DNA of 32,086 nt from NCBI GenBank assembly GCA_012841375.1, contig DUUV01000024.1, positions 1 to 32,086 on the forward strand, read 5' to 3'. The translations under genes were made by a program, and so were the position numbers. The notes beneath the pieces are model-generated. The model saw only the letters and a list, made by a program, of their open reading frames with translations. It had not been told where the DNA came from and did not search any database. This DNA is from Candidatus Fermentithermobacillaceae bacterium. GTDB lineage: Bacteria; Bacillota; Sulfobacillia; Fermentithermobacillales; Fermentithermobacillaceae. Each line of letters opens with the position of its first letter. Position 1 is the first letter of the stretch. Shown here one piece after another: positions 1,229-32,086 of the stretch.

Positions 1229-1336
1229 ATATCATGATAGGATCTAGTGTATCGCCTTCGCTCACGAATGGCGTACCGAAAAGGATCACAAGAATTCTCT
1301 ACTTGCAGCGAGGCGCGAAAGGAGCTACCGGACCAC

Positions 1337-2347
1337 ATGCCAGCTAGGTCTTGGAAACGAATAGCGTTAGGGCTGATCTTATGGATAGCGGTGATGGCTA
1401 TCTTCATGTACCTCTCAGAAGACGCCCCCAAGCTTCATGTATCTTCCGCAAGCGCTATGGAAGAGCACGTGGAGAGCCCGGGCGACGTTGTCTTTGACTA
1501 CGAGACGGAAGATCTGAGGGTATTCGCAGTCACCTCGGGAGAGGGTAAGGATCCCGAGATATTCGCCCTGACAAAGCGCCTGGGGTTTTGGGTCTACGAT
1601 TACCCCTCCAAGGGAAACATCCAGGGAATTACCTGTCTTGGAGACGATGCGTACATTTACCTCCTGCATGAGGCGAATAGAACCCTCCGTCTCGTTGCGG
1701 AAGACGGGACTAGGATAGATCCGGTGGAATCCCGCCCATTGTCCGCAAACGGTGCGGAAAGCACCATGAAGAAGGCCATATCGATACTAAGGATCGGGGA
1801 CTACGCCCATCGCCCCGGCAACTACCGGCTCTTGATTGTGGACGGGACCGGAGGACCGGTCAATGCCAGGACTGACGAATACGATCTGGACTCCATCGCC
1901 TTCTCACTCTGTGGACAGGACGATGGAGACGGCGAGGTCCTGGAGTATACTCCCGAGGAGCTCGCAAGATTTGACGATGACAGAAGCCGGGCAATCGACC
2001 TGTTTGAAGACGCAGTCTCCAGGAGGACACCCACCGAAGCGGTTGTGTTCGAAGGCTCAAGGATGCCTGATACGCAGAAGGACATCTACGCACGGACGAC
2101 TCTGGGCACCTATTACAAGGTAGAAGGGAAGAACAGAGTGTTCCGGTGGGAACACGACATAAGCTACCACCTGGTCATGAACGGAGAGTACAAGGATACC
2201 CTCCTTCGCCACGAAACCAACTATATGAAACACAGCCTCTTCGAGGACGGCTTGAGCTCCATAAGCTCATCGTACAAGGTGGAGCACACGGAAGCGCTGG
2301 ACGACCTGAATCGCGTCTTTCACTTGTTTTTTCCGAGCACACCGTAG
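1337..2347 (+). CDS. Unrecognised membrane-anchored protein
   Basis: The predicted product is 336 residues: a short basic N-terminus (MPARSWKR), one hydrophobic segment at about residues 9-24 (IALGLILWIAVMAIFMYL) and a long soluble domain predicted outside the membrane. The C-terminal domain is acidic and rich in beta-type sequence (for example DDAYIYLLHE and NYRLLIVDG). I recognise no family or catalytic motif. The frame is open back to a GTG at 1247 and an ATG at 1268. I chose 1337 because AAAGGAG precedes it (spacing about 12) and because it puts the basic residues directly before the membrane segment. It stands alone, downstream of repeats and palindromes and about 140 bp before the SPFH gene. 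Confidence 0.7.
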   Translation: MPARSWKRIALGLILWIAVMAIFMYLSEDAPKLHVSSASAMEEHVESPGDVVFDYETEDLRVFAVTSGEGKDPEIFALTKRLGFWVYDYPSKGNIQGITCLGDDAYIYLLHEANRTLRLVAEDGTRIDPVESRPLSANGAESTMKKAISILRIGDYAHRPGNYRLLIVDGTGGPVNARTDEYDLDSIAFSLCGQDDGDGEVLEYTPEELARFDDDRSRAIDLFEDAVSRRTPTEAVVFEGSRMPDTQKDIYARTTLGTYYKVEGKNRVFRWEHDISYHLVMNGEYKDTLLRHETNYMKHSLFEDGLSSISSSYKVEHTEALDDLNRVFHLFFPSTP

Positions 2348-2414
2348 ACTCGACATCAAGCTCGGCCACAACCCTACGTGGCGCAGATGTATGCCGAACC
2401 AAGTGATAATGGGA

Positions 2415-2442
2415 TTGACCAAGGCGCCGGATGAGATATCAT
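2415..2442 (+). promoter_or_regulatory. Sigma-A-type promoter for the SPFH gene
   Basis: TTGACC (2415-2420) and TATCAT (2437-2442) are separated by 16 bp and match the consensus at five of six positions each. The start codon of the SPFH gene follows at 2491, behind a strong AGGAGGG. This is prediction from sequence only. Confidence 0.55.
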
Positions 2443-2490
2443 ATTGATAGCATTAACATAGCAATGTCTCTGTATTAGGAGGGAATCGGC

Positions 2491-3495
2491 ATGAAAGCCC
2501 GCTATACCGAGGAGATCGAACTCAAGGCGCCAAACGGGATGGGCATGCTCATAGTGAGTATCATGCTCGTGCTCTTGGACATAGCGGTTATCGTTCTGGG
2601 AGCGTTCCTCGTCTCCCGGGACGTCACGGCTCCAGGAACCATCCTGCTCATCGTGGGTATCCTGTACTCTCTCGTGTGCTGGATACCTTTCCTGGGACTC
2701 AAAGTCCTGAAGCCCCAGGAAGCCCTTGTCCTCACTCTGTTCGGCAAGTACATCGGTACCCTCAAGGGTGAAGGGTTCTTCTACGTGAACCCGTTCTGCG
2801 TGGCAGTCAACCCGGCGGCAGGCGCAGGCACGGCAACGGGAACCGAAGACGAAAATCCCGTGGTTAAGTCAGCCGGCCGGTCAGCCAACGTCTCTCTTCG
2901 CGTCCCAAACAAGGTCATCTCCCTAAAGGCCATGACCCTCAATAACAACAAGCAGAAGGTCAACGACGAGCTTGGCAACCCTGTAGAGATCGGGGTCGTG
3001 GTGATCTGGCGCGTGGTCAATACGGTCAAAGCAGTGTTCAACGTGGACAACTACAAGGCCTTTCTGTCCATACAGTGCGACGCCGCGCTCCGTGACATCG
3101 CCAGGCTGTATCCCTACGATGTGGAAGAAAACGGCGAGATGAGCCTCCGCGGGAGCAGCCGCGAAGTCGCCGACAGGCTGAGGGCCGAGTTGCAGTCGCG
3201 AGTGGAAATCGCGGGGCTTGAGGTGATGGAAGCCAGGATCACTCATCTTGCCTACGCCCCCGAAATCGCGGCCGCGATGCTTCAGAGGCAGCAAGCCTCC
3301 GCCATCATCGCAGCGAGAAAGATGATAGTGGATGGCGCGGTGGGGATGGTCGAGATGGCCCTCAACAAACTCGGTGAGAACAACGTCGTTCACCTCGATG
3401 AGGAGAGAAAGGCTGCCATGGTCAGCAACCTGCTGGTTGTGCTGTGCGGCAATAGAGACGCCCAGCCTGTAGTCAATAGCGGAAGCCTATACTGA
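2491..3495 (+). CDS. SPFH-domain (stomatin/prohibitin-like) membrane protein
   Basis: This 334-residue protein has two N-terminal hydrophobic segments (about 17-41 and 48-70), followed by a band-7/SPFH-type domain that begins around LKPQEALVLTLFGKYIGT (73-90) and includes a beta-rich stretch and VIWRV (about 171-175). A helical C-terminal region rich in Ala, Arg and Gln follows (about residues 225-300), as in the oligomerising helix of the family. SPFH proteins assemble into membrane-bound rings that organise membranes or proteases. The specific role here is unknown. The start is fixed by AGGAGGG about 8 bases upstream. Only 3 bp separate it from the ribbon-helix-helix gene, so the two are probably co-transcribed. 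Confidence 0.85.
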   Translation: MKARYTEEIELKAPNGMGMLIVSIMLVLLDIAVIVLGAFLVSRDVTAPGTILLIVGILYSLVCWIPFLGLKVLKPQEALVLTLFGKYIGTLKGEGFFYVNPFCVAVNPAAGAGTATGTEDENPVVKSAGRSANVSLRVPNKVISLKAMTLNNNKQKVNDELGNPVEIGVVVIWRVVNTVKAVFNVDNYKAFLSIQCDAALRDIARLYPYDVEENGEMSLRGSSREVADRLRAELQSRVEIAGLEVMEARITHLAYAPEIAAAMLQRQQASAIIAARKMIVDGAVGMVEMALNKLGENNVVHLDEERKAAMVSNLLVVLCGNRDAQPVVNSGSLY

Positions 3496-25973: not shown

Positions 25974-26348
25974 TTACTTCTTCGGCCTCTTGGCGCCGTA
26001 CAGCGAACGACCCTGTTTGCGGTCGGCCACGCCGGCGGCGTCGAGGGTGCCCCTGACTATGTGATAACGAACGCCAGGAAGATCCCTTACACGGCCGCCC
26101 CGGACTAGCACAACCGAGTGCTCCTGCAGGTTGTGCCCGACGCCAGGGATATAAGCGGTAACCTCAATACCGTTGACTAGTCGGACACGAGCGATCTTCC
26201 GTAGTGCCGAGTTTGGCTTCTTTGGCTGAGTAGTGCGGACCACGGTGCAGACGCCGCGCTTGAAGGGATTGCCCCTAAGAGCACGGGACTTGGACTTCTC
26301 CCGCACGTGTTTGCGGCCCTGCCTTACCAGCTGGTTGATTGTCGGCAC
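25974..26348 (-). CDS. rpsL: 30S ribosomal protein S12 with natural Arg88
   Basis: S12 monitors codon-anticodon pairing at the A site. The 124 residues carry the invariant [19 protein letters not shown] with Lys43, and [20 protein letters not shown] with Asp89, the usual methylthiolation site. Position 88, almost always Lys, is Arg here (codon AGG, 26085-26087). In E. coli and mycobacteria Lys88Arg causes streptomycin resistance and raised accuracy. It starts with GTG. It follows the L7Ae-like gene by 3 bp. Confidence 0.97.
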
Positions 26349-26351
26349 CTT

Positions 26352-26672
26352 CTAACCCCCTTTTTCTGCCTCAGTTTGCCCATTTCCGGGCTCTCGGCCC
26401 GGCTCTTTCAAGATGGCGCAGGCAGATGCGCCTACCTTGAGGGAACAAAACTCGCCCAACTCCTTCATAGAATCAAAAAAAGACACAGGTATGCCCTTTT
26501 CCTGACACAGCCTAAGGAGGTTCTTGACGACGCGTTCTTCGGCGTCTTTCGCTACGTAGACCGCCTTACAAAGACCGTTCTGAACTGCCCTTTCGGCGGA
26601 TCTCACTCCCGGAAGCCGGTCCTTCCCGGCCCGTTGACGGTTCCCCCGCAAACTGAAAGGCCCGTTCGACAT
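26352..26672 (-). CDS. L7Ae/L30e-family kink-turn RNA-binding protein
   Basis: The product has 106 residues from the ATG that follows AGGAGG by 7 bases. The core RSAERAVQNGLCKAVYVAKD, then NLLRLCQEKGIPVSFFDSMK and the GEFCSLKVGASACAIL strand fit the L7Ae/L30e fold of the YbxF/RplGB family. These bind kink-turn RNA and are encoded before rpsL in many Bacillota. The N-terminus (NGPFSLRGNRQRAGKDRL) and a hydrophilic tail extend the core. It is the first gene of the super-operon, downstream of the promoter at 26717-26745. Confidence 0.88.
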   Translation of the reverse strand: MSNGPFSLRGNRQRAGKDRLPGVRSAERAVQNGLCKAVYVAKDAEERVVKNLLRLCQEKGIPVSFFDSMKELGEFCSLKVGASACAILKEPGREPGNGQTEAEKGG

Positions 26673-26716: not shown

Positions 26717-26745
26717 AGTTTAGCACCCGCCAATTCCGGTGTCAA
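26717..26745 (-). promoter_or_regulatory. Strong sigma-A-type promoter of the super-operon
   Basis: On the minus strand, TTGACA (26740-26745, perfect -35) is followed after 17 bp by TAAACT (26717-26722). The next gene begins at 26672. It is the only near-consensus promoter I noticed in or upstream of the block from 26672 to 3930, so it may drive all these genes. Internal promoters hidden inside coding sequence cannot be excluded. Confidence 0.75.
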
Positions 26746-26778: not shown

Positions 26779-28431
26779 TCACCGTCGCCGGGCGCTCCTG
26801 CGACTCTGCCTTGGCCCTCCCTCAGGCAAGACAAAGAGGCGGTCGAGATAGAAACCCTCCTTGCAGGCGGATACCAACCCGGTCGCATGGGCCTCCAACC
26901 ATCCGAACACTTCTCTGCGCTTGCGGACAATTAGGAATCCCAGCGCCAAGGCGATAAGCGATATAAAGAACGCCGCGCTGCCAAAGGTCTCCTCGACAAG
27001 ATACAGGGGCGAAATCGTGTGAATTCCGAGTCCCGGAACGGTTCTTTGAAGTTCCCCGCTCCCAATGCCTATGGACATCCAAGAGAACGCCGTCAAGATG
27101 GCCAGAATCACCATGGGGATCTCCATGGACAAGGGCGCTTCGGCCGCGCCGCGAACTACCCGTGAAGGGTTCCCGCGGAACACCCTGATGTAGGAAGACC
27201 AAGAGTAAACCACGGTAAGCACGGCGCCGAAGCCGGCCAAAGCGAGGGCCCCGTATTGATGGCCGGCGAGAGCCCCCGCCAGGACCATATCCTTAGAGAA
27301 AAAGCCGCTCATGAACGGTACGCCCGAAAGGCCCATGACACCCACCAAGAAGGCCGCTCCGGTCACGGGCATCCTCGAGGCTGCGCCCGACAGGAGGTTC
27401 ATGTCCCTAGTACCGGTCGAATGCACCACGGAACCTGCGGCAAGAAAGAGGAGTGTCTTGAAAATGGCGTGGGACATGAGATGGAACTGAGCCCCAAGTA
27501 TGGCGCCGGTCCCAACCGCGAAAAACATGTAGCCCAGCTGGCTCATGGTGGAGAACGCCAACATCTTCTTAATATCATTGGCGTAAAGGGCCATGAGCGC
27601 CGAGGCCAGGATTGTAAGACCACCCGTCCACATCACGGTGCTTGCCCATCCCGGTATGGACCTGAGGACCGGGTAAAACCTCATCACCAGATAGACGCCG
27701 GCATTCATGACCGTGGCAGCGTCCAGGAGAGCAGAAGCCGAACTGGGCGCCTCCATGGCGCCCGGCAGCCAGACGTGCAGCGGGATCTGGGCCGACCGCA
27801 CCATTGCCGCCAACATGATCGCATAAGCCCCGGGTGCAATGAGGGCCGACGTCGCGCCCGGAAGGGCACCGGCAATCTCGGCGAGACCAAAGCCCCCGGC
27901 CTCGCTCCCGTAGTACAAGAGCCCTATGCCGAGAAGAAGCAGCAGGTCACTGGCCCTGCCAAACACTAGCGCTTTCTTGGCGCACGCCGGGGCGTCCGGG
28001 TTTTCTCTGTTGAACCCGACAAGTTGACACGTCAAGGTGGAACAAGCCATCCAAAAGGCAGCCATAATGAGGGCGTTCCCCGAGAGCGTCAGGCCATTGA
28101 CCGACCCTATGGTGAGGAGCACAAGAGAGTAGTACCGGGACGCGTCCCGCTCATGTGCCATGTAGCCGAGAGAATAGAGGAGAACCAGAGCCCCCAACAG
28201 GGACGACGCGAGGGCTACGAAGAAGCCGAGACCATCAACCGCGAGTCCAAAGGCAGCCTGTCCCCCGTGAACCCAAGGGACGGCGGATACGGCTACCGCG
28301 GCGGTAACCCCCCCGGTGCCGAGCGCTACGTAAGGCGCCGCCTTACCACCCCCCAGGACCCTAGACACCCATACCAGCAAAGCGCCTAAGAACGGCAGGA
28401 CAACCACAAGCACAAACGGCAGATCGGACAT
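26779..28431 (-). CDS. NuoL/MrpA-family membrane protein, orphan and divergent
   Basis: The 550-residue product has about 13-14 hydrophobic segments. An NADH-oxidoreductase chain 5 type N-terminus (about 64-140) leads into the proton-antiporter core (SAQIPLHVWLPGAMEAPSSA 213-232; KKMLAFSTMSQLGYMFFAVG 288-307; FHLMSHAIFKTLLFL 316-330; GFFSKDM 376-382). It ends at KEGFYLDRLFVLPE plus a basic tail and lacks the last helix of NuoL. Key proton-path residues differ: the TM5 Glu is Met128, the TM7 Lys is Arg212 and the His of ALIHAAT is Asp237. No other complex I, Mrp, hydrogenase or DabA gene is adjacent. The start was chosen for GAGGTG about 9 bases upstream. Function unknown. Confidence 0.88.
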   Translation of the reverse strand: MSDLPFVLVVVLPFLGALLVWVSRVLGGGKAAPYVALGTGGVTAAVAVSAVPWVHGGQAAFGLAVDGLGFFVALASSLLGALVLLYSLGYMAHERDASRYYSLVLLTIGSVNGLTLSGNALIMAAFWMACSTLTCQLVGFNRENPDAPACAKKALVFGRASDLLLLLGIGLLYYGSEAGGFGLAEIAGALPGATSALIAPGAYAIMLAAMVRSAQIPLHVWLPGAMEAPSSASALLDAATVMNAGVYLVMRFYPVLRSIPGWASTVMWTGGLTILASALMALYANDIKKMLAFSTMSQLGYMFFAVGTGAILGAQFHLMSHAIFKTLLFLAAGSVVHSTGTRDMNLLSGAASRMPVTGAAFLVGVMGLSGVPFMSGFFSKDMVLAGALAGHQYGALALAGFGAVLTVVYSWSSYIRVFRGNPSRVVRGAAEAPLSMEIPMVILAILTAFSWMSIGIGSGELQRTVPGLGIHTISPLYLVEETFGSAAFFISLIALALGFLIVRKRREVFGWLEAHATGLVSACKEGFYLDRLFVLPEGGPRQSRRSARRR

Positions 28432-28481
28432 TACGACAGCACCTCGACGGCAGGAACGATATGGAGCTTTTTGTGACACGC

Positions 28482-28525: not shown

Positions 28526-28554
28526 ATGATAGCATTCGTCCACAGCCGGTTCAA
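28526..28554 (-). promoter_or_regulatory. Sigma-A-type promoter for the NuoL-like gene
   Basis: On the minus strand, TTGAAC (28549-28554) and TATCAT (28526-28531) are separated by 17 bp. The NuoL-like gene starts 95 bp downstream at 28431. Good spacing and hexamers suggest that the gene is expressed independently of rpoC. Confidence 0.6.
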
Positions 28555-28708
28555 CACGCCGCGACCCGGGCCTCACACCGGGGACCTAGGCCGCACATTC
28601 GCTGCCGCGCATGCGGATCGCGCACCAAGCGGGCGCCCGGGCGGCAGATAGTGTCTGCACACCTACGTTGCGCACCGGCGGGGAGTATTAGCCGTGGGAC
28701 ATGTGCAC

Positions 28709-28819
28709 CCGTGAGGATGTCTTGCGGGACATAGCGCCTGTAGAGATGTCTTGCAGGAAATATGCGCCTGTGGGGATGTTCTGCGGGACATACGCCCGGG
28801 TGGGGATATGTCCCGCAGA
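28709..28819. repeat. Four tandem units of about 30 bp
   Basis: Four degenerate units begin near 28711, 28740, 28770 and 28800 with the consensus GTGGGGATGTYTTGCGGGACATA followed by a CGC-rich joint. The fourth unit is altered so that its end reads ATGTCCCGCAG, the reverse complement of the previous unit's end. The array ends 6-7 bp before the stop codon of the minus-strand hydrolase. Confidence 0.8.
28781..28818 (-). terminator. 12-bp perfect hairpin just after the hydrolase gene
   Basis: CTGCGGGACATA (28781-28792) and TATGTCCCGCAG (28807-28818) are perfect reverse complements with a 14-base loop. They lie 7 bp downstream of the stop codon of the minus-strand hydrolase. The position fits a transcription terminator or mRNA-stabilising element. 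No U-run follows on the minus strand, so intrinsic termination is unproven. Confidence 0.4.
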
Positions 28820-28825
28820 TTTGGA

Positions 28826-29485
28826 CTATATTGCTGGGATCCAGACCTCTGTATCGCCGCGAGGGCCGTCGGGACTGAGTTCCACTGAGAACTCGCCGGC
28901 CGGCAGTCTCTTGACGGAGCTCCATTGGGCGGCGAACTCCTCAGGCCCGGCTATGGGCCAATCGGCGATGTAACCGGTCTTGAAATGCATGGCGACTGCG
29001 ACTCTGGGGTTCAGCGCCCTCACGACGCGGGCGGCCGTCTTCCCGTCAATGGTATAGTGACCTCCTACAGGGACCAGCAGGACATCGCACTTGCCGATGG
29101 CCGCCACGGCCTTCGCGTCGAGCTCGTGTCCCAAGTCCCCCAGGTGAACCACGGTCATCCCGGGCATCTCCATCACGAAGACGGCGTTTGCCCCTCGCTT
29201 GGAGCCTCCCTCGCCGTCGTGGAAGGAGGCGACGGTGCGGAACCGGACATCACCTATCGTCTCATCAACTTGAGCCACTTCCTTGCCCGAAAGACCCCTG
29301 AGGACTCGCGGAGACCCTTTCAACCCGTCGATGCCGTTGTGATCGTGGTGTTCGTGTGAGACCGTCACCACGTCACAATCAAGCGAGATAGGAGGGTAAG
29401 GCACCGAAGACGCGAAGGGGTCCGTTACTATCCTCACCCCTGCCGGCGAAACCAGACTGAACGCAGCATGACCTAACCACTTCAT
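28826..29485 (-). CDS. Metallo-beta-lactamase-fold hydrolase (UlaG/UPF0173-like)
   Basis: The 219-residue product begins MKWLGHAAFSLVSPAGVRIV with an N-terminal His6, like the UPF0173 and UlaG-like single-domain hydrolases. The di-metal motif HEHHDH (44-49) is followed by HLGDLGHELD and PVGGHYTIDGKTA, with a late His in AVAMHFKTGY. These are the expected ligand positions. The substrate cannot be told. I chose the ATG at 29485 because GGGAGGTG lies about 8 bases upstream. It sits between rpoC and the NuoL-like gene, where most relatives have none of these genes. Confidence 0.88.
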   Translation of the reverse strand: MKWLGHAAFSLVSPAGVRIVTDPFASSVPYPPISLDCDVVTVSHEHHDHNGIDGLKGSPRVLRGLSGKEVAQVDETIGDVRFRTVASFHDGEGGSKRGANAVFVMEMPGMTVVHLGDLGHELDAKAVAAIGKCDVLLVPVGGHYTIDGKTAARVVRALNPRVAVAMHFKTGYIADWPIAGPEEFAAQWSSVKRLPAGEFSVELSPDGPRGDTEVWIPAI

Positions 29486-29587: not shown

Positions 29588-32086
29588 CTACTCCAGTTCG
29601 TCTCCAGTGCCCGCTATATCCTGGGCGACTTCCTCTTCCAGTGGAGGCGCCCGCCGTACATCGATCTGCGAGTACCTGGCCATACCGGTACCTGCGGGTA
29701 TGAGTTTCCCGATGATCACGTTCTCCTTAAGCCCCAACAGGTCGTCTACCCTGCCCTTGACCGCGGCTTCGGTGAGGACCCTTGTCGTCTCCTGGAAAGA
29801 CGCGGCTGACAGGAACGACTCGGTTGCGAGTGACGCCTTGGTGATGCCGAGGATAACGGGTTTTCCAATGGCGGGCTCACCGCCTTTTTCAAAGGCAAGC
29901 GCGTTGGCGTCGGCGAACTCGTGGACATTGACGACGCCTCCGGGCAGGAGTTCGGTGTCACCCGGCTCGTCTACTCTGATCTTCCGGATCATCTGCCTCA
30001 CGATGACCTCGATGTGTTTGTCGGAGATGTCGATTCCCTGGAGCCTGTAGACACGCTGCACCTCGGCGACGAGATAATCCTCGACGGCACTGACTCCCTT
30101 GACTCTCAAGAGGTCGTGGGGGTTTATGGAGCCTTCGGTCAGAGGCTGCCCTGCCTCCACAACCTGGCCGTCGGTTACCTTGACGAGGGCGCCGTACGGC
30201 ACCACCGTTACCGTCTGGTCGCCTTCAGCCGACGTGATGCGTATCTCCCGTTTCCTGTCGCCTTCGGCGATCTCGACCACACCGGAGATCTCCGCGATGG
30301 CCGCCTGGCCCTTGGGCTTCCTGGCCTCAAACAACTCTTCAACTCTGGGCAATCCTTGGGTGATGTCCTCGCCGGCGATTCCTCCCAGGTGGAACGTACG
30401 GAGAGTCAGCTGGGTGCCCGGTTCTCCGATTGACTGGGCAGCGACGGTACCCACTGACTCACCTACCTGCACCAGACCACCCGACGCAAGGTCACGGCCG
30501 TAGCACTTCACGCATACCCCGTGCCTGGTCTCGCAGGCAAGGACCGACCGCACTTCGACTTCTGCAATGCCGGCGTCGACAATCCTCTGAGCCGCGTCCT
30601 CATCGATCTCATGGTTGGCTTCGACGATTGTCTCTCCCGTAGCGGGATCGAGGACGTCCTTAAGGGCGAACCTGCCCACAAGGCGGTCATACAAGCTCTC
30701 TACAAGCTCTCCGTCGATCTTGATCTCCCGCACGGTGATGCCGCTCTCGGTACCGCAGTCCTCTTCCCTCACTATCACATCCTGGGCTACGTCCACGAGA
30801 CGCCTGGTGAGGTATCCTGAGTCGGCCGTACGGAGAGCGGTGTCAACGAGGCCTTTTCGCTGTCCGTGGGTCGAGGTGAAGTACTCAAGCACCGTCAGCC
30901 CTTCCCGGAAGTTTGACCTTACAGGCTGCTCGACCATTCGCCCCGACGGGTCAACCACGATGCCGCGCATACCACCCAGCTGGGAGATCTGCTGCGGGTT
31001 GCCCCGGGCGCCCGAGTTAACCATCATGATAACCGGGTTGCGTGGATCGAAAGCCTTCCTCATCGCCTCGGTTACCTTGTCGGTGGTATCACGCCAGATG
31101 GAAATGATCTTGTCGTACCGCTCATCCTTTGTGAGGAAACCCATCTGGTACTGATTTTCCACCTCAGCCACTTTGGCCTCGGCTTCCTTCAGCAACTCGG
31201 GCTTCTCTTCCGGGATGGTGATGTCGGTTATGGAGATGGTCGACCCCGCCTTGGTGGCATAGGTGAATCCCAGGTCCTTGATTCCGTCCAGCATGTTGGC
31301 CGCTTTCTCCATACCGTACTTGCGTATGCAGTCCAAAAGGAGCTTACCCAAGGGCTTTCTGTCGACAACCATGTTGACGAATCTGAGTCCCTCGGGAAGC
31401 ACCTGATTGAATATGCAGCGTCCGACGGTCGTCTCGATCCTCTCGCCCGAATGAATGCGGACGAGTATTCTCTCATGCAGCCTGATGGCGCCTACGTCGT
31501 AGGCCAGTATCGCCGCGTCTTCAGACTCGAAGGGCTTCAGGTCCTTGGTCTCGCGGTCGTCCTCGTCGATCAGGGTAAGGTAGTAGACCCCCAAAACCAC
31601 GTCCTTCTGAGGGGTAACCGAGGGTGACCCGTCTTTCGGAAGCAGTAGGTTCCGGTTGGAGGCCATAAGGACTCTCGCCTCGGCCTGAGCTTCCGCCGAG
31701 AGAGGAACGTGGACGGGCATCTGGTCTCCGTCAAAGTCGGCGTTATAGGGCGGGCAGACCAGCGGGTGAATCTGGATGGCGCGCCCTTCCACCAACACGG
31801 GCTCAAACGCCTGAATCGATAGCCTGTGAAGCGTAGGAGCGCGGTTCAGGAGGACCAAGTGCTCCTTGATGACTTCCTCAAGGACGTCCCACACTTCCGG
31901 CCTTGCCCGTTCAACCAACCGCCTGGCGCTCTTGATATTGTGGGCATCGCCGCTCTCGACAAGCTTCTTCATGACGAAGGGCTTGAAGAGCTCCAAGGCC
32001 ATTTCCTTGGGAAGACCGCACTGGTGGAATTTCAGGCTGGGACCGACCACGATAACGCTGCGTCCCGAGTAGTCCACACGCTTCCC
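29588..32086 (-). CDS. rpoC: RNA polymerase subunit beta-prime, C-terminal part (partial)
   Basis: The 832 residues in the window continue in frame past the right edge, so the 5' part of the gene is missing. Present are the double-psi barrel with the catalytic Mg loop NADFDGDQM (near 31718-31741), the bridge-helix region [17 protein letters not shown], and the trigger-loop region [20 protein letters not shown]. The second zinc site ([15 protein letters not shown]) and the C-terminal switch region follow. The motif is followed by Pro-Val-His rather than Ala-Val-His and preceded by CPPY, which resembles archaeal sequences. Otherwise it is a normal bacterial subunit. Confidence 0.97.

Follow-up and report, generated by a model that had tools for sequence, protein, structure and literature searches.

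In complex I, the lateral hydrophilic axis is linked to NuoL through Lys229 and Glu144, and a role as switch between this axis and the vertical Lys305-Lys342 route has been proposed for His254 (PMC13358369). In a B. subtilis mrpA deletion, E. coli NuoL could take the place of the missing protein; in this assay the K229A mutant performed as unmutated NuoL, the E144Q and H254A mutants still grew, and M258I and V259L were the most harmful changes (PMC4938563). The assay retained the other Mrp subunits, so NuoL was not shown working entirely alone (PMC4938563). NuoL homologues have also been recruited outside redox pumps. DabB/MpsA, the PF00361 subunit of the DAB inorganic-carbon complex, has DabA as its partner, and DabB2 carries Ile151 in place of the TM5 Glu, which has been read as held 'open' (PMC13144422). 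Removal of the C-terminus has been studied in E. coli, where the NuoL mutants Y590St and K551fs lack TM16 or, in addition to it, part of the lateral helix; their complex is fragile and its quinone reductase activity negligible (PMC3274701). Finally, a group 4g hydrogenase has been described for Ca. Fermentithermobacillus carboniphilus Bu02 (PMC10215811). A question shared by complex I, Mrp and the energy-converting hydrogenases is whether a lone antiporter-like subunit can move ions, and which of its halves carries them. In the literature searched we found no description of an orphan or stand-alone NuoL, though such a case may still exist.

A lone NuoL-like gene between rpoC and rpsL

The window, that is the whole stretch of 32,086 nucleotides analysed here, encodes at 26779-28431 on the minus strand a 550-aa NuoL-like protein, with an ATG start at 28431; the coordinates and strand first assigned to it were borne out. 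In profile searches the protein matches Proton_antipo_M (PF00361; E 3.5e-60) and also Proton_antipo_N. Its best family score is NADH-quinone oxidoreductase subunit L, at 335 bits far under the curated cut-off of 556, and its best PDB sequence matches are NuoL-type chains. An AlphaFold model built from a 19-row alignment gives a complete NuoL bundle (pLDDT 82, pTM 0.86; last 16 residues of low confidence), to which complex I NuoL/ND5 chains are the closest structures (Z ~48 for NuoL chains), with MrpA close behind (Z 45-49 overall). The profile match and the NuoL fold place the protein in the antiporter-like subunit family.

A ribosome-binding site, GAGGTG (28440-28445, minus strand), precedes the gene, and further upstream lies the promoter TTGAAC-17-TATCAT with an extended -10 (28526-28554, minus strand). 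This promoter is conserved in three species of the window's genus, and the sister genus, represented by genome G009, has TTGAAG-17-TATCAT; in both genera it stands ~95-100 bp ahead of the gene. Such conservation supports the proposal of the sequence-only reading that the gene is driven by its own promoter. A degenerate 30-bp tandem repeat of ~3 copies lies at 28696-28796, between this promoter and the preceding gene.

That preceding gene, which forms the left flank of the site, encodes an MBL-fold hydrolase (28826-29485), and next to it is rpoC (29588-32077, its 5' part beyond the window). On the right the site is bordered by the gene for an L7Ae-like ribosomal protein (26352-26672) and by rpsL (25974-26348), after which come rpsG, fusA and tuf. 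These four flanking genes are on the minus strand. We used rpoC and rpsL as syntenic anchors and the MBL gene as a syntenic marker. Just past the orphan stop, the L7Ae-rpsL operon has a promoter that is strong and conserved (TTGACA-17-TAAACT; 26717-26745, minus strand) and that marks the right edge of the old operon site. Elsewhere in the window, at 1247-3495 and on the strand opposite the ribosomal cluster, a 366-aa ORF without Pfam match lies directly ahead of a Band_7/SPFH gene.

Wherever they are assembled, the flanks rpoC-MBL and L7Ae-rpsL-rpsG-fusA are conserved, and the content of the MBL-L7Ae gap varies across the order (loci L055, L054, L076-L081, L083, L085 and L086). In G010, a complete relative genome in a single contig of 2,316,832 bp that matches Bu02, the site is occupied by a complete group 4g [NiFe]-hydrogenase operon, which specifies a hydrogen-producing membrane pump. 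Here hypF, an AIRS-domain (hypE-like) gene and a NuoK-like gene are followed by a canonical NuoL, by M and N, and then by a 116-aa protein, the small subunit, 30K, 49K/NiFe, NuoH and HycI. In the 4 genomes of the window's genus and the single genome of the sister genus, NuoL stands alone at the site. It has gone from the site in two other genera of the family too (g2 and g5): genus g5 and genome G008 have nothing between the flanks, and the other g2 genomes carry one unrelated ORF, D-cysteine desulfhydrase-like by eye. Genome G002 has ORFs resembling an ABC transporter.

A species tree of RpoC, EF-G and S7 joins the window's genus and G009 as sisters (100/100), with G010 outside. The NuoL tree groups the orphans in a single clade (97/98) within the order's group 4g NuoL (100/100), and this placement makes them group 4g NuoL by descent; the stem of the window's genus is long (0.87). 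The NuoL of G010 thus represents the direct evolutionary parent of the orphan, with the same site, 49% identity, the same clade and the same fold. We are therefore close to certain that the gene is what remains, still in its place, of a group 4g [NiFe]-hydrogenase operon once flanked by rpoC-MBL and L7Ae-rpsL. The most parsimonious history is a single loss of all operon genes but NuoL in the last ancestor shared by the two sister Ca. Fermentithermobacillaceae genera. The protein had been read as a possible new type of channel or subunit; an orphan acting as an altered ion conduit is the reading we prefer as well, but with an origin in the group 4g operon it is not a new family. No standard clade whose members function with Met and Arg at the changed positions was found.

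Because these genomes are MAGs in many contigs, the lone gene could in principle reflect contamination or an assembly artefact, with the remaining hydrogenase operon on a missing contig. This is extremely improbable: five independent assemblies all have the gene embedded between rpoC and rpsL, and the hydrogenase subunits and HypF are absent in 5/5 orphan genomes. In the window only ~50 bp separate the orphan stop from the leader of the next gene, and the operon would not fit there. The synteny across the five assemblies led us to reject a missing contig, which is refuted at this site.

Search for partner subunits

The statement that no partner subunits are encoded nearby held in a profile search of the window, and further profile searches found none elsewhere in the assembly (2.37 Mb, 157 contigs, 98% complete), in which the window protein is the sole PF00361 protein. 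The NuoH-type family PF00146, PF00346, the [NiFe] family PF00374 and the NuoK family PF00420 are absent from the window's genome (G000), from three congeners (G014, G015 and G016) and from G009, and HypF is likewise absent from all five, absences that rest on MAGs but are consistent across the five assemblies. The same four families are present in G010, G001 and G002, except for PF00420 in G002.

The company expected of each known relative is therefore missing. None of the five orphan carriers encodes the protein with hydrogenase catalytic and membrane subunits, as for a group 4g NuoL. The complex I companions NuoH, NuoD, NuoK, NuoM and NuoN are absent from the genome, with its single PF00361 protein. 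For MrpA there is neither a second PF00361 protein (MrpD) nor a PF00420 protein (MrpC), and the orphan, at 550 aa, lacks the C-terminal extension of MrpA. DabA (PF10070), the partner of DabB/MpsA, is absent from the window's genome, and control genomes gave matches. We accordingly rejected both a DabB identity and a Mrp or complex I subunit with distant partners. The suggestion that the protein serves a complex encoded elsewhere is also unsupported, since the genome encodes no subunit of a hydrogenase, of complex I or of Mrp and no DabA, and those of the hydrogenase are missing from the three congeners and the sister genus too. Nor did we find a complete operon elsewhere in the genome of which the gene could be a duplicate. 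The MBL hydrolase was rejected as a partner: wherever the left flank is assembled its gene borders the site, whether NuoL is there or not.

In G010 a second pair of PF00361 genes (L057, 6908-10662) lies beside other membrane ORFs, far from the hydrogenase operon; it is a separate Mrp-like or other complex.

Changed residues and a shortened C-terminus

Met128 (TM5; codon 28048-28050), Arg212 (TM7; 27796-27798) and Asp237 (TM8; 27721-27723), all read from the minus strand, align with Glu144, Lys229 and the 'histidine switch' His254 of E. coli NuoL. Among 47 NuoL-type relatives, with only the rows covering each column counted, these columns hold Glu in 43/45, Lys in 45/45 and His in 45/46. The replacements noticed at first reading are thus confirmed by alignment and column counts, and they are exceptional, reflecting neither chance nor ordinary variation. 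The TM5 position is Met, Met, Thr and Thr in the four members of the genus and Glu in G009; the TM7 position is Arg in 4/4 congeners and Lys in all others including G009; and the TM8 position is Asp in 5/5 orphans and His in nearly all canonical relatives. Every member of the genus consequently lacks the Glu, Lys and His typical of a group 4g NuoL. Elsewhere in the class, two full-length proteins of NuoL type that belong to another family (L108 and L112; genomes G082 and G021) have Ala at the TM5 Glu and keep the Lys and His, possibly representing another group that lost this Glu.

Other positions have changed as well. The window protein retains the TM6 equivalent of Arg175, which is replaced by Leu in the other three congeners and by Val in G009. 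In the window's genus the TM8 pair Met258-Val259 is reversed to Val-Met, and a conserved Arg at 412 is Ser. The Lys and His residues of the later half remain, as had been claimed: Lys288, His317, His321, Lys325 and Lys380 correspond to E. coli K305, H334, H338, K342 and K399. T312, D400 and D178 (E. coli numbering) are kept too.

The C-terminus is truncated, again as first described. Of the lateral helix and TM16 that a group 4g NuoL would have, the window's genus has lost both, and its proteins end in a basic tail. The G009 protein, which retains the Glu and Lys and has Asp for His254 and Val for Arg175, ends ahead of TM16: its tail (L054, 9660-9783) keeps the pre-TM16 sequence RQTGGSRG (RAQTGDLNG in G010) and then stops. 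On this comparison of sequences, the G009 tail is a visible intermediate of the truncation, and the lateral helix was lost stepwise. The two E. coli truncations resemble these states, loss of TM16 corresponding to G009 and loss of part of the lateral helix with TM16 to the window's genus. Unlike in E. coli, however, there is no complex left here to hold. Since the E. coli truncations make the complex fragile, the shortened orphan fits a protein unbound from a complex.

Compared with the NuoL of G010, then, the orphan has no partners, has its own promoter, has lost the TM5 Glu, the lateral helix and TM16, and shows Lys to Arg, His to Asp and MV to VM changes, with conservation shifted to TM9-13. 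It shares with DabB2 the replaced TM5 Glu and the kept TM6 Asp and basic TM7 residue (PMC13144422). In contrast to the orphan, DabB2 keeps Lys235 and His260, and diverges in TM12-14, which the orphan conserves.

Selection on the orphan and its possible function

Within the genus, dN/dS of the orphan is 0.09-0.15, similar to that of the neighbouring MBL gene, values that are approximate because dS is near saturation (~1-2). The frame is intact in four congener species and in the sister genus, one of the assemblies having a 5' gap of Ns. It is very likely that the gene has been kept by selection, which is purifying and strong. The loss of its partners, its shortened C-terminus and its long stem branch might instead be those of a leftover without important function, with decay pending. 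We consider this highly unlikely, given the dN/dS of ~0.1 (at dS ~1-2), the intact frame, the conserved promoter and ribosome-binding site, and the 81-85% identity of TM9-13 between the congeners compared. A pseudogene was rejected on dN/dS and the conserved promoter.

Constraint is unevenly spread along the protein. The genus keeps 26/53 of the sites conserved in canonical NuoL in TM4-8 and 41/46 in TM9-13, a difference (p = 2.8e-5) that is descriptive, since the test assumes independent sites and the lineages share history. For G009 alone the counts are 33/53 and 43/46, and ten canonical controls gave no such retention bias between the two regions. Identity to the NuoL of G010 is 45% in TM4-8 and 64% in TM9-13 for the window protein, against 86% and 73% for the canonical NuoL of G001. 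On these comparisons, constraint has flipped from the partner-facing half, TM4-8, to the TM9-13 half. Most of the TM4-8 changes are fixed across the four species of the genus, and dN/dS is 0.11-0.18 in TM4-8 versus 0.06-0.10 in TM9-13.

A rebuilt partner-facing half with most changes fixed is what might be expected if the protein had become a subunit of a new, unrecognised complex, its TM4-8 face binding a different partner as DabB binds DabA, and DabB is a precedent for the recruitment of NuoL homologues. However, DabA itself is missing, the sole constant neighbours (MBL and L7Ae) occur with or without NuoL, and within the genus the faster-evolving region is TM4-8, not TM9-13, which is not how a conserved binding face behaves. 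We regard this explanation as unlikely. Rather less likely is a structural or scaffold protein that transports nothing and is retained because it aids folding or the organisation of the membrane. It would account for the change, in 4/4 congeners, of the Glu, Lys and His classically tied to pumping, but a scaffold would not need the ion-path residues K305, T312, H334, H338, K342, K399 and D400, which are all kept.

The explanation we favour as a whole, at about an even chance, is that the relic of the group 4g operon is under selection, has been remodelled and works as a partner-free vertical H+ or Na+ conduit. Taken by itself, the partner-free conduit is a tentative assignment, slightly short of even. 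With all partners lost, the orphan would act alone or as a homo-oligomer. Its partner-facing half-channel in TM4-8 (the Glu144/Arg175 pair, Lys229, His254 and Met258-Val259) has been rebuilt, and the TM9-13 route, formed by the seven ion-path residues above, has been left almost unchanged. Ions would cross the membrane vertically, uncoupled from the redox chemistry that acts via the lateral charge relay, and Asp237 may bridge Lys288 and Lys325 permanently. A little more tentative still is the proposal that a redox-pump subunit has become a self-sufficient channel or transporter, its lateral charge relay (Glu, Arg, Lys and His) and lateral helix cut, the TM8 residues proposed to govern ion specificity changed and its TM9-13 route kept.

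The B. subtilis results bear on this conduit. K229A was unimpaired there and E144Q and H254A still grew, so the residues changed in the orphan are dispensable for that activity. Both M258 and V259 positions are changed, which suggests that the ion specificity of the orphan is altered. Like the orphan, the MrpA N-terminal domain and the E. coli NuoL used in that system are NuoL-type and have been proposed as a single-subunit ion channel (PMC4938563); unlike there, where the rest of Mrp was present, no other Mrp subunit is encoded here. Conversely, a strict complex I pump view predicts that translocation is abolished once the Glu and Lys are lost.

The experiment that the question of a lone subunit calls for appears to have been run by evolution: the partners were removed, the subunit was kept, one half was rebuilt and the other preserved. 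The natural series of canonical NuoL, intermediate (G009, with Glu and Lys present) and orphan allows a direct test, and the orphan shows that NuoL-type proteins can leave the redox pumps by a second path, distinct from that of DabB.

The gene is not essential to the lifestyle, as two other genera of the family do without it. Retention of the lone gene owing to loss of other Na+/H+ exchangers proved an uninformative idea, as PF00999 is absent family-wide, including from genera without the orphan. The likely setting is an uncultured fermenter with an Rnf pump, beside which the conduit would probably serve ion or pH homeostasis. Bu02 has sodium-type V-ATPase and pyrophosphatase (PMC10215811), and Rnf is present in 17/17 genomes.
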